In this document: in pieces, positions 4,242 through 63,680 of the stretch
Position numbering within the stretch: the stretch's first letter is position 1
Layout of the letters: the number at the start of each line of letters is the position of its first letter
Assembly (NCBI GenBank): GCA_022826805.1
Contig: JAJDUH010000058.1
Location: forward strand, 45,987 to 109,986
Origin: Candidatus Poribacteria bacterium
Lineage (GTDB): Bacteria > Poribacteria > WGA-4E > WGA-3G
DNA: 64,000 nt
Reading direction: 5' to 3'
Made by a program: the position numbers and the translations under genes
The notes under the pieces: model-generated
Told to the model about the DNA's origin: nothing
Seen by the model: only the letters and a program-made list of their open reading frames with translations
The model's database searches: none

Positions 4242-5423
4242 TCAAACCACTTCCATCCAAACCCCCGGCACAAACCCCGGATACTCACCTTCACTAAACG
4301 CCGGATAATAGACATCCTCGCCACTGAATTCGTGAACCGTCTCACCACCGCTGCCATCAGGAATATGTACACGGCAAGTATAATCGCTCTCACGGAACAG
4401 CTGCTGCGGTGTCGGTGCAGATGGGTCAACACGATACTCCGCTAACGCCGCTTCATCCACCGTAATCCCCAACCCAGGCGATTCCGAAACAGCAATCGTC
4501 CCATCAACAACAGTCAACCGCGTCTCAAGCAGATCGGATTCCCACAATTCATGACACGTAATCGCAGGCAATTCTGCTTGTGATAACACCGCACCCAGAT
4601 GCACTGAGTATGCCGTCGTAATCCCCGTGCCCACCATCTGGAGCCAGAACGGTTGCGAGAACGACGCACAGAGCGCATTCGTTCGCAGGAGCGCGTTCAC
4701 GCCACCACCGACAACAAACCCACCACAACACCGCGCATGCAGACACGATTCGTTGAAATGCTCAACAATCCGTTTCTGCACATTCACTTGCAACCGTGCC
4801 GCACCCATTACATCTGTGCCGAGATAGTACGGACTCTCGTAGATAGCGACGTTTGGATGTTCATCTAACTGCTGCAGCACAGGAATCGCGTTATCTGCAG
4901 TCCGCAAGAACCCGTTGAAATCGATGTCGAGCCGATAATCTGCTGGCACTGCATCACCGACCGCCTCCGCCTGCGCGAAGATGTCCCGCCACGGACGCGC
5001 CTTCAACTTTGCCGACGTGTAACCCCGTTTTACCGATTCTTGGACTTCCGCCACCCAATCCTCCGGGGGCATATCGATATCCCACCACGAAATAGGGCAC
5101 TGCTCGCGAACCTTCGGACCAATGAGTTGATAGACCGGCACATCAACGGATTTACCAATCGCGTCAAAAAGCGACATCTGAATGCCGAACCCGATGCTAT
5201 CATCGTTCATACATGCAAACGCGTTCTGTCCGATCACCTGTTCAATATTTGCCGATTCATCTCCTAAATTTTCGCCATAACCGATAACGCCGTTGCTAAG
5301 TTCAACACGGTAAACGTGAACCCGTTCGCCGTGTGTTAAGGCACGGTGCATGTGTCGGCTAACCCGCTCGTGGTAGAACGGCACGTTCAAAGGAATCGCT
5401 TCGAGATGTTTGATGCTAAGCAT
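4242..5423 (-). CDS. Enolase-superfamily (mandelate racemase/muconate lactonizing) protein
   Basis: MLSIKHLEAIPLNVPFYHERV..., GYTSAKLKARPW, DIDFNGF, CHELWESDLL. Confidence 0.8.
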   Translation of the reverse strand: MLSIKHLEAIPLNVPFYHERVSRHMHRALTHGERVHVYRVELSNGVIGYGENLGDESANIEQVIGQNAFACMNDDSIGFGIQMSLFDAIGKSVDVPVYQLIGPKVREQCPISWWDIDMPPEDWVAEVQESVKRGYTSAKLKARPWRDIFAQAEAVGDAVPADYRLDIDFNGFLRTADNAIPVLQQLDEHPNVAIYESPYYLGTDVMGAARLQVNVQKRIVEHFNESCLHARCCGGFVVGGGVNALLRTNALCASFSQPFWLQMVGTGITTAYSVHLGAVLSQAELPAITCHELWESDLLETRLTVVDGTIAVSESPGLGITVDEAALAEYRVDPSAPTPQQLFRESDYTCRVHIPDGSGGETVHEFSGEDVYYPAFSEGEYPGFVPGVWMEVV

Positions 5424-59222: not shown

Positions 59223-60008
59223 ATGCGCCTTCCTGAACTTACACTGGATCAGATTCAAGACCGCTGCACCGCACAGAGTTTCGCGCGCGGTGAAGACTAC
59301 TTCAACATGGAGATGATCGGCAATCCGATACTTCACGGATGCACATTGGCATCGACATGCGAAGGGACAGAAGAAGAGCCGTATCGTGTCTCTGTGGAAC
59401 TGACACCTACAGGGATTGCTGACACAAAGTGTTCCTGTCCGTACGATTGGGGAGGCGATTGTAAACACGTTGTCGCACTGCTGCTCACTTATATGTATGA
59501 ACTGGAGACAATCTCTTCCCTGGATGCCTTGCTGATCGTGCTCGCCGAAAAACCCAAGGAGACCCTGTTACGCGTGATTTCGGAATTGCTCACACGATCG
59601 CCGGAGTTGGTGGATATCGCGCGGTTCCATGCTGACATACCCGAGGCACCGGAGGAAGAAATAGAACCGATCCCACCCGAACTCAGCGTTTACGTAACAG
59701 TCGTAGACAAGGAGATGGAAGAGTTTGAAGAGTTTGAAGACACGGAACTCGAAGATCTCGGAGAGATGGAAGAGCTCGCAGATCCCCAAAATCCCGCTAT
59801 CCCGCTATATCACAGCCTTATTGAACAAAAAGTGCTTTCCGGAAATCGTAAAGCTTACGAGGAAGTTTTGGAGTGTTTGATCGTGCTAAGAGAAATCCAC
59901 GAGGACCTTGATCTGGAAGATGAGTGGACGCTTTATCTGGAAAACTTCCGAAAACGACACGCTCGCAAGCGGGTGTTGCTACAAATGATGGATGCGCAAC
60001 ACCTTTAG
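59223..60008 (+). CDS. SWIM zinc-finger protein
   Basis: CSCPYDWGGDCKHVVALLLTY (CxCx(n)CxH). Confidence 0.88.
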   Translation: MRLPELTLDQIQDRCTAQSFARGEDYFNMEMIGNPILHGCTLASTCEGTEEEPYRVSVELTPTGIADTKCSCPYDWGGDCKHVVALLLTYMYELETISSLDALLIVLAEKPKETLLRVISELLTRSPELVDIARFHADIPEAPEEEIEPIPPELSVYVTVVDKEMEEFEEFEDTELEDLGEMEELADPQNPAIPLYHSLIEQKVLSGNRKAYEEVLECLIVLREIHEDLDLEDEWTLYLENFRKRHARKRVLLQMMDAQHL

Positions 60009-60346: not shown

Positions 60347-60581
60347 CAATAAAAACAAACGCGATTCACCGATCGCGTGCAGATGAATCATAAATTGCCC
60401 AAGAATCCAGATGGCACTTGACCTTAGAGTCCATTTTGATAAAAAATCGCGTTGGGTCCAATGGTTACGTGGGTTTGTCGGAATTTTGGGTTGAATTTTT
60501 GCGTTAAAGAAACCCTCGCTCAGTTCGCGTTTGGTTTTGGGTCTACGGAGCCACATCTGGGCTGGGCTGAAATTGGGGGCA

Positions 60582-60911
60582 GTCCGAAAGGATTTTCCCG
60601 TTTGAAGGGAATTGAAACTATATAGCTGTTTCTATTAGAAGAAGATCTTCTTCAGTCTTAAAAGACTTTCCCGTTTGAAGGGAATTGAAACCTAAGCGTA
60701 GTGAGGCCGTGTGTTTTCAATGCTAATTGTCTTAAAAGACTTTCCCGTTTGAAGGGAATTGAAACTTTGGCTGTATAAGATTCCCACTTTAAGTTTAGTG
60801 TCTTAAAAGACTTTCCCGTTTGAAGGGAATTGAAACTTATAGAAATAACTAACTACAAATGCCTCCGTTGACTTGTCTTAAAAGACTTTCCCGTTTGAAG
60901 GGAATTGAAAC
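60582..60911 (+). CRISPR. CRISPR array segment 1: five 37-bp repeats, four spacers of 34-38 bp
   Basis: Consensus GTCTTAAAAGACTTTCCCGTTTGAAGGGAATTGAAAC at 60655, 60729, 60800, 60875; degenerate first repeat at 60582. Confidence 0.95.
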
Positions 60912-61134
60912 ACAGCTTCCAGTTTGTCCAATGTGAAAGCGAGAATTTTCAGACGTTCCGAAATCTTCAAAATCAAACTCGGATCGTCAGAATTGTACGG
61001 AATCTCCGCACGACAATCCTCCAGTTCCGTCCGAGCATAACCAATAACCAGATTCCACATAGTAGGATCAGGCTTGTCGGTAGTAGTATTATTGCTATTC
61101 TGATTCGCTATTAGTAGTTTTTTTAGGAGGGATT

Positions 61135-62259
61135 ATGTTGTTTAGAAAATTGAGTTTAGTTTTGGTTCTGTTGTTTTGTGTTAATTTAGGATATGCGAAG
61201 TTAGAGATTATTGTGAAGGACTCACCGGATTGGGGAGATGTTTTGGATGAAGATGTTGAGTATTTATGTCAAGAGATTGTTGATCAGTTTGAGAAACATT
61301 TACACCCGGCGAATGAGATCCATGCGTCGGTCAATGTGTCTCGGACAACTGTTGGATATAGTTTTCTAAATCTTGATTTAAAGGATCCTCATGTAAAATA
61401 CAAGATAAGTGTCCAGATGGGAGAAAATATAGATCTTAGATCTATGGGGCATTTGTGGGATTTTATTATTAGATTTGGACATGAAATTACGCATATATTG
61501 CAAGTTGAACAGAAAGGATTATCGTATAGAGCAACTGATAATGTCAATTTGTGGTTTCAAGAGGCTATTGCTCAAATGGGATGTGTCTGGGTAATGAAAA
61601 GTATGGCAGATGCTTGGAAAGATGGTTCACGTTTTGGAAAAGGTATATCAGAACCGGGAGGGTTCGCTGAATTTAGCGAAAATTTTGATTTCTATGCGGA
61701 TTGGTATATGGGTATTAATCCTTACTATGGCACTGCTAAAGAATGGCTTGAGAGATATGAAGATCAGATGAGAGTTGACTATCGGCAAGAGATTGCTGAA
61801 CAATTAGGCTATAAGCTTTTGTCTATTTTTGAGGATAATCCCGAAGCTTGGAACGCGGTTAGAAAAATGCCTCTTGCCAATACAGAAAAAATGTCTAAAT
61901 ATATGCAGATTTGGTATGATGCAGTGGATGTTCAGGATAGGCAGTATGTAGAAGCAATGGCTGATATAATGGGGGTTGAGGTGAAATCCATTGTTGTTGC
62001 CAGTAGAAAATCAGGTATACAGATAGACGCAGACATAGACAATAACGGGTTTGTTGATTTATCAGATGTTCTGCTTGTCCGAAGTGCTATGCAAAATCTA
62101 ATAGCTTATGATACTGATGTTAATAATGATGGGGTTACGAATGAAATTGATCTCTTACTTGTAAAGCAAGTTGCAACTGCAGCAATAGTAGCAGCTGCAC
62201 CGAGTCTTAAAAGACGAAAAATTGTAGCTACTACATGGGGATCGTTGAAACAACGATAG
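61135..62259 (+). CDS. Secreted zinc metalloprotease-like protein with dockerin-like repeats and C-terminal VATTWGSLKQR motif
   Basis: Signal peptide MLFRKLSLVLVLLFCVNLGYA; FGHEITHILQVEQKG...LWFQEAIAQMG (HExxH...E); DADIDNNGFVDLSDVLLVRSAM and DTDVNNDGVTNEIDLLLVKQV; RBS AGGAGG. Confidence 0.8.
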   Translation: MLFRKLSLVLVLLFCVNLGYAKLEIIVKDSPDWGDVLDEDVEYLCQEIVDQFEKHLHPANEIHASVNVSRTTVGYSFLNLDLKDPHVKYKISVQMGENIDLRSMGHLWDFIIRFGHEITHILQVEQKGLSYRATDNVNLWFQEAIAQMGCVWVMKSMADAWKDGSRFGKGISEPGGFAEFSENFDFYADWYMGINPYYGTAKEWLERYEDQMRVDYRQEIAEQLGYKLLSIFEDNPEAWNAVRKMPLANTEKMSKYMQIWYDAVDVQDRQYVEAMADIMGVEVKSIVVASRKSGIQIDADIDNNGFVDLSDVLLVRSAMQNLIAYDTDVNNDGVTNEIDLLLVKQVATAAIVAAAPSLKRRKIVATTWGSLKQR

Positions 62260-62314
62260 AATTTTTAGAGGAGTCCACAATGTTTAAAATTTTCAATAAT
62301 ATTACGAGTATCTC

Positions 62315-62342
62315 GTCTTAAAAGACTTTCCCGTTTGAAGGG
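62315..62342 (+). CRISPR. Left part of a CRISPR repeat interrupted by the IS
   Basis: GTCTTAAAAGACTTTCCCGTTTGAAGGG; right part GGAATTGAAAC at 63589..63599. Confidence 0.9.
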
Positions 62343-62382
62343 TTGTAGTGCATACGCTTATTTAGGCCACAATTTCGCAAAG

Positions 62383-63234
62383 TTAAGATAAGGTTTGTCG
62401 TTGAAATTCGATAGGTGTCAAATACCCTAACGCCGAATGTGGGCGTTTCTGATGATACACCTGTGTGATAAAATGACTGATGCGATCTCTCACCTCGGTG
62501 ATGTCTTGATAGTCATTGATGTCAACTTCTTCTTCTTTGAGCGTGCGGATGAGTCTTTCAGCATATCCGTTCTCCCAAGGGCGTCCGCGCGCTGCGACGG
62601 AAATCTCAATGTGATGTGCTTGGAGTGTGGCGATATAAGCTTTTGAAAGATACTGCACACCTTGATCGGAATGATGAATCTCACAGACGCTGTGGCAGAA
62701 TGCCGCTTTGAGCGGTTTGAGCGTCAGAGATTGGTTCAAGTGCTGACTGAGCTGCCACGCTCTGATCATACGCGTGAAGACATCCATGAGCAGGCAGACA
62801 TAGATAAAACGTCCCTTGAGACGCACATAGGTAATATCAGACACCCAGACCTGATCCTGACGAGAGACCTCAAGGTTTACGAGCCGGTTGCGCCAAGGTT
62901 TTTCACCTTGAAGCGATTTTGTTGTTTGACAGGCACGCTTGACGGCAATCAACAGATTATTGGCTTTCATCAAGCGTGCGACGCCTCGGGTTCCAACAGT
63001 GTATCCCTGACGCAGTAGCAACTGCGTGATACGCCTATACCCGTATCTCGGATACCGTCCAGCGAGTTTCTCTATTTCAGTTCGCAGGACGGAAACCTCG
63101 GACGGATCCTCTCTGGGGTGATAATAAAAACTACTGCGGTTGAAACCGAGTGTTTGACAAATCTCTCGCACGGAATACTCTGGGTGCAATGCCGAAATGA
63201 GATTTCGCTTTTCGGATAAGCTCATTTCAACCAA
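62383..63234 (-). CDS. IS3-family transposase OrfB (rve/DDE integrase core)
   Basis: VWVSDITYVRLKGRFIYVCLLMDVFTRMIRAWQLS...HHSDQGVQYLSKAY...GRPWENGYAERLIRTLKEEEV. Confidence 0.95.
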   Translation of the reverse strand: MVEMSLSEKRNLISALHPEYSVREICQTLGFNRSSFYYHPREDPSEVSVLRTEIEKLAGRYPRYGYRRITQLLLRQGYTVGTRGVARLMKANNLLIAVKRACQTTKSLQGEKPWRNRLVNLEVSRQDQVWVSDITYVRLKGRFIYVCLLMDVFTRMIRAWQLSQHLNQSLTLKPLKAAFCHSVCEIHHSDQGVQYLSKAYIATLQAHHIEISVAARGRPWENGYAERLIRTLKEEEVDINDYQDITEVRDRISHFITQVYHQKRPHSALGYLTPIEFQRQTLS

Positions 63235-63509
63235 TCCAAGGAAACCTTTTTTTGGATGTCTAAGGCAACAGTTAATCTCCCAACGAGCTGCTCAAGGTGA
63301 GCGATACGCTCCTCGGCATCACTCGACTGCTTATGAGAAGACTCAAACAGGGATGCCGCATTTTCAAGGAGCTGTCGTTTCCACTGTGAGAGTTGATTTT
63401 CGTTGAGATTATGACGCCGACATAGTTCTGCTTGTGAAGTCGCACGACTGAGGACTTCGAGAACAACTTCGGCTTTAAACTCGGGGGTGAACTTTCTTCG
63501 TTTTGCCAT
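63222..63509 (-). CDS. IS3-family transposase OrfA (HTH)
   Basis: MAKRRKFTPEFKAEVVLEVLSRATSQAELCRRHNLNENQLSQWKRQLLENA. Confidence 0.93.
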   Translation of the reverse strand: MAKRRKFTPEFKAEVVLEVLSRATSQAELCRRHNLNENQLSQWKRQLLENAASLFESSHKQSSDAEERIAHLEQLVGRLTVALDIQKKVSLDWLK

Positions 63510-63588
63510 TGGAGACTCCTTTCAATGAGATTGTTATTGTAGCACAATCTTCCTTTAGGGAGTGGTCTAAAAAACCGTAGGCAGTACA

Positions 63589-63680
63589 GGAATTGAAACG
63601 AAACAAAATGATAAAGGTTCGGATTTTATCTATTCTTTATTTAGTCTGAAAGAACTTTCCCGTTTGAAGGGAATTGAAAC
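63589..63680 (+). CRISPR. CRISPR array segment 3: right part of the interrupted repeat, one 44-bp spacer, terminal degenerate repeat
   Basis: GGAATTGAAAC at 63589..63599; GTCTGAAAGAACTTTCCCGTTTGAAGGGAATTGAAAC at 63644..63680. Confidence 0.9.

Follow-up and report, generated by a model that had tools for sequence, protein, structure and literature searches.

How a complete gene came to lie between two repeats of a CRISPR array is the question raised by this locus. The window, meaning the whole 64,000-nt stretch of DNA analysed here, is the end of contig C17 in a bin of 80 contigs (5.09 Mb), placed by kinship among sponge-type Poribacteria, with 320 nt between the end of the array and the end of the contig. 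Seven repeats in a single orientation start at 60582, 60655, 60729, 60800, 60875, 62315 and 63644, and the chance expectation of the repeat in shuffled sequence was 0 (100 shuffles). On the forward strand, repeat 1 (60582..60618, the variant GTCCGAAAGGATTTTCCC...), repeat 2 (60655..60691), repeat 3 (60729..60765), repeat 4 (60800..60836) and repeat 5 (60875..60911) are followed by an interval of 1403 nt (60912..62314, +), the interrupted repeat 6, a last spacer of 44 nt (63600..63643, +) and repeat 7 (63644..63680, +), a terminal variant with three mismatches. Apart from the 44-nt spacer, the normal spacers are 34-38 nt long, and all are unique. Since conventional spacers measure about 30-45 nt, the 1403-nt interval is not a conventional spacer by length. 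These coordinates confirm the initial annotation, which had described repeats across 60582-60911, a 1403-nt interval with a full gene, and further repeats at 62315 and 63644.

The interval contains the complete gene of a secreted HExxH/dockerin-type protein (374 aa, 61135..62259, +), which reads with the repeats and starts 223 nt after the start of the interval. The protein has a signal-peptide-like start, an HExxH motif and a Pfam match to Dockerin_1 (3e-5); an AlphaFold model based on four sequences was unusable (mean pLDDT 35). The interval is single-copy in the window genome, bar two short partial matches, and DNA searches found no donor either in this genome or, with the interval flanks as queries, in the family. 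A transposon at 60912-62314 was rejected, as the interval has neither terminal inverted repeats nor a transposase, and a CreTA-like toxin pair was set aside because a 1.1-kb protease-like gene fits it poorly. At the left edge, a reverse-strand ORF (MWNLV...LDKLEAV, 60878..61060, -) runs into repeat 5 and had been read as a fragment cut at the repeat. It had no Pfam match and no relative in a protein search of 85 Poribacteria genomes (best E 0.14), so that it may be a chance ORF, and the new ORF start proposed at the right edge is just 12 codons long. Near the end of the dockerin gene, positions 62204-62215 carry the same 12 bases (GTCTTAAAAGAC) as the start of the window repeat variant, perhaps by chance.

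The second gap in the array has a different origin. An IS3-type insertion sequence (62343..63588, -) splits the repeat at 62315 into a left part of 28 nt (62315..62342, +) and a right part, GGAATTGAAAC (63589..63599, +). Its OrfA (63222-63509) and OrfB (62383-63234) carry rve domains, and its ends, TGTAGTGCATACG / TGTACTGCCTACG, could be read in the sequence together with a 2-bp GG duplication. The OrfA/OrfB DDE transposase with its rve core, the inverted ends and the target duplication are shared with the IS3 family, although the duplication is 2 bp long instead of the usual 3-4 bp. The element accounts for the second gap, and the first interval is not its product. The array is thus interrupted by a gene at 60912-62314, as had been proposed, whereas the IS3-type element in the second gap had been missed.

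We then considered the machinery to which this array belongs. In eight genomes with the window's repeat family, a reverse transcriptase (RT; RVT_1 2e-35, YADD) and Cas1 (3e-93) lie directly ahead of the leader and array, and some of these loci have Cas6, RAMP and APE2256 genes nearby. Beside the array, relatives carry the type III genes Cas10, Cas6, RAMP and APE2256, while the window contig stops right after the array; the repeat family in intact loci is type III, with RT adjoining Cas1. The window array retains the conserved leader ahead of repeat 1 (compared part 60482..60581, +), which is similar to the 100 nt preceding the first repeat in many related arrays. It also retains a SWIM zinc-finger gene (261 aa, 59223..60008, +, Pfam SWIM 5e-7). 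In tblastn comparisons with RT-Cas1 loci, the SWIM gene of intact relatives precedes RT and Cas1, and that of the window lacks about 200 internal residues found in these relatives. RT and Cas1 are missing ahead of the window leader, the window is devoid of cas genes, as was correctly noted at the outset, and the suggested search for cas genes elsewhere, when run, found no Cas1 in the whole window genome. The window genome has lost the RT and Cas1 of its array.

Whole genes also lie between repeats in other Poribacteria. In the congener G026 (JAJEIE010000033.1), an array at the same chromosomal place as that of the window, preceded as there by two amidohydrolase genes, a Rieske gene and a PhyH gene, contains an orthologue of the dockerin gene (71% aa) between repeats at 4816 and 6276 of L034. 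After the orthologue comes a truncated glycosyltransferase gene, of which the initial 69 codons remain before the repeat cuts it off; further along, later repeats of this array enclose a DUF805 gene. At this place in G037 there are 12 repeats without interruption, with Cas10 afterwards. The proposed search for homologues of 60912-62314 yielded the G026 orthologue, itself between repeats, and no donor. Between the window and G026 the dockerin gene has a dN/dS of 0.15 (dS 1.2), which indicates purifying selection, either ahead of capture or since. In the tree these two copies group as sisters, and their interval flanks do not visibly align, so both a single ancestral capture and two captures are possible.

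The G007 array consists of 11 repeats of one type, an interval of 1061 nt and then four repeats of another type. The interval carries a dockerin metallopeptidase gene other than that of the window, together with the truncated start of a glycosyltransferase gene; the repeat type changes exactly at the gene interval (L107:8309-10369). Further gene-bearing intervals were found in G035, G001, G010/G009, G020, G054 and G002. The RT-family interval of 836 nt in G031 has no convincing sense gene. An assembly join within the metagenome bin could be suspected from the 80 contigs and from the contig end 320 nt past the array. However, separately binned genomes have the same arrangement, in G026 even with the orthologous gene at the same place, and other whole genes lie between repeats in other Poribacteria, which makes such a join very unlikely. 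The genome of G035 is one closed contig and carries a gene interval, which rules out a short-read artefact there. Regarding the content of these intervals, those of G020 and G010/G009 (L154, L152) encode small coiled-coil membrane proteins of similar appearance. Leaderless repeats of the window's family in G002 are spaced by 2516, 36, 1797 and 694 nt (L111:7548-12775), and the long intervals contain seven ORFs, all sense to the repeats.

To compare this family with others, we took as controls the arrays beside other Cas1 genes in related genomes, mostly of the Cas4-Cas1 fusion type, and applied a single detection rule, an interval of 300-4000 nt, to both sets. A search of the control loci for RT homologues found none. 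Such intervals occurred in 9/27 arrays of the RT-linked repeat family, which includes arrays that no longer have RT beside them, and in 0/18 control arrays (Fisher p = 0.007); these counts are partly non-independent, since related species share arrays and the window was picked for its interval. Counted by repeats, 13 intervals, one of them the window IS, were found among 655 repeats, against 0 among 667 in the controls (p 9e-5). In this comparison, therefore, long intervals are restricted to the RT-linked family.

The 3' edges of three intervals could be compared with ordinary genomic copies of the same sequence. For G007, 1.0 kb of the interval aligns at 90% identity with an ordinary locus in G006, where the glycosyltransferase gene continues, and this homology breaks off exactly where the next repeat begins. 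Compared with G005, the match of the glycosyltransferase fragment of G026 extends to the final base before the repeat. A 217-aa gene from G002 is a member of a tandem family, of which many genomes carry ordinary copies; its homology to about a dozen of these copies ends within a few bases of the repeat. The flush joints of these three relatives are all on the 3' side of the interval, with 0 uncoded nucleotides; on the other side, the opening stretch of each interval lies outside the region of homology, 46 nt in G007, about 40 nt in G026 and about 9 nt in G002. A lone repeat relic truncates the same glycosyltransferase gene in G023 at yet another point, and since G026, G007 and G023 have three different break points in it, the joins are independent. 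The alignments thus indicate at least three independent joins flush with the 5' end of a repeat, one of them (G002) to within a few bases. In G008 (L199), the 217-aa gene is preceded by just the last 8 bases of a repeat (ATTGAAAC).

Two ways of making such joints by recombination were weighed. The initial annotation had offered either a captured DNA segment or two arrays recombined across their repeats. Capture is supported by the whole genes between repeats in relatives and by the three flush joints, whereas ordinary copies lack a repeat at the position of the break, so that homologous recombination between repeats is a poor account of the joints and the second option is disfavoured. The cut edges that had been read in the window itself, for which no donor was found, are putative. 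Alternatively, a normal 36-nt spacer derived from the downstream part of a gene might have served as the primer for break-induced replication that ran into the native locus and brought the upstream gene along. This would account for the flush 3' joint; nevertheless, it leaves both the restriction to RT-linked arrays and the consistent sense orientation described below unexplained, and we regard it as improbable.

Cas1 is known to join the 3' end of a spacer to the 5' end of a repeat. On balance, we favour Cas1-type integration of gene-length fragments in an RT-linked type III array, of which the window would be an orphan remnant. According to this proposal, the small array in the window is left from a type III family served by RT and Cas1, and, as long as the adaptation genes were there, the Cas1 integrase would have joined a fragment of about 1.4 kb, with the complete dockerin-type gene, between repeats in the manner of a 36-nt spacer, thereby placing the gene between two direct repeat copies. 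RT and Cas1 would have been deleted later, and the IS3-type element would have jumped into the next repeat. We infer both that Cas1 made the joints seen in the relatives and that the same event took place in the window. The Cas1-Cas2 complex normally measures about 36 nt, which counts against integration of kilobase fragments. Other points against are that no donor was found for the window interval, that the homology in the three relatives begins inside the interval on the 5' side, that most intervals are close to the old ends far from the leader, where repeats are degenerate and decay of another kind may have acted, that the repeats flanking the G007 gene differ in type between left and right, and that the G031 interval has no convincing sense gene. 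A literature search on gene-length spacers and kilobase integration, covering few subscription journals or preprints, returned nothing relevant.

The location of the intervals bears on whether ordinary insertions or rearrangements in array ends undergoing decay, through transposition, inter-array deletion or relics scattered between resident genes, could produce the same picture. The intervals tend towards the leader-distal end: that of G035 follows repeat 58 of 61, those of G010 and G054 are near the end, and those of G007 and the window follow 11 of 15 and 5 of 7 repeats, respectively. Many leader-distal intervals have degenerate repeats. Either the leader-distal intervals are old, or leader-proximal ones have been lost via recombination between identical repeats. 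In addition, an IS is present in the window's next repeat, and the murB next to the G002 gene is also its neighbour in G008 and G011, where repeat relics occur only upstream of the gene. On the other hand, three joints are flush with a repeat edge, 0/18 control arrays have such intervals, and 60912-62314 lacks terminal inverted repeats and a transposase. The repeats flanking the gene interval are intact in the window (the IS aside), G026 and G007 and degenerate in several others, making ordinary decay a live rival at the latter and less so at these three. Overall, we consider it rather unlikely.

The integrated material, if Cas1 joined it, may have been DNA or RNA. We examined nine conservatively independent intervals with a credible gene, and all nine genes are sense to the repeats (9/9, two-sided p 0.004). 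These genes retain their own start and ribosome site, the distance from repeat to start is about 34-53 nt in 6/9 intervals, and the 3' ends of the intervals lie inside a downstream gene. A PHROG search for a phage origin of the interval genes gave weak matches only. The RT-Cas1 of Marinomonas mediterranea joins RNA and its cDNA into arrays, adding 1-6 uncoded nucleotides to spacers of 34-35 nt (PMC11014452). It shares with the intact relatives an RT beside or fused to Cas1, type III genes and an array served by the module (PMC11014452, PMC5513706), and differs in its 34-35-nt spacers from the gene-length intervals here and in its retained RT and Cas1 from the window, where both are gone.

As a special form of the Cas1 explanation, RT-Cas1 might therefore have joined an mRNA or a long cDNA, leaving a 'retro-spacer', a bacterial processed gene copy. 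If the 3' end of the RNA were joined to the 5' end of the repeat, the gene would be sense, its 5' edge near the transcript start and its 3' edge anywhere downstream. The sense bias and the start distances fit the joining of RNA or cDNA, as do the 3' ends inside downstream genes, the confinement of long intervals to RT-linked arrays in this comparison and the activity of the Marinomonas enzyme. However, the three joints have 0 uncoded nucleotides where Marinomonas adds 1-6, the window interval begins 223 nt ahead of its gene, and a sense bias would equally result if genes expressed from the leader were selected for. RNA is favoured by the sense bias and the lack of added nucleotides speaks against it, so that a DNA and a cDNA source both stand; we hold the RNA route to be a possibility, less probable than Cas1-type integration as such. 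The fuller claim that RT-linked Cas1 modules insert gene-length, reverse-transcribed host mRNAs and thereby generate intact sense gene copies, or CRISPR-made retrogenes, is offered slightly more tentatively still.

The window and its relatives suggest that CRISPR machinery of the RT-linked kind can insert gene-length pieces and not just 36-letter spacers. If gene-length inserts do recur solely in RT-linked arrays, the Cas1-Cas2 ruler, generally taken to set spacer length, would be open to bypass, CRISPR arrays would be able to serve as gene-capture platforms, and bacteria would possibly make retrogenes. As RT-Cas1 systems are already functional in the laboratory, the question is directly testable. 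Integron gene cassettes are likewise whole genes in the same orientation with short repeats between them and a leader-like side. The window's family appears to resemble them in its gene-repeat layout, although its separators are CRISPR repeats, accompanied by normal spacers, Cas1 and a leader.

Two observations concern the old ends of arrays. In G001 (L109:7200-8800), relic repeats alternate with short MITE-like elements and small genes. A 92-aa gene family with no assigned function was seen solely at array ends, either between CRISPR repeats or next to them, in 3/85 genomes of two genera (L128, L170, L166, L168): G035 has it between repeats, G016 immediately behind the final degenerate repeat, and G045, from another genus, has it twice, between or beside repeat relics.
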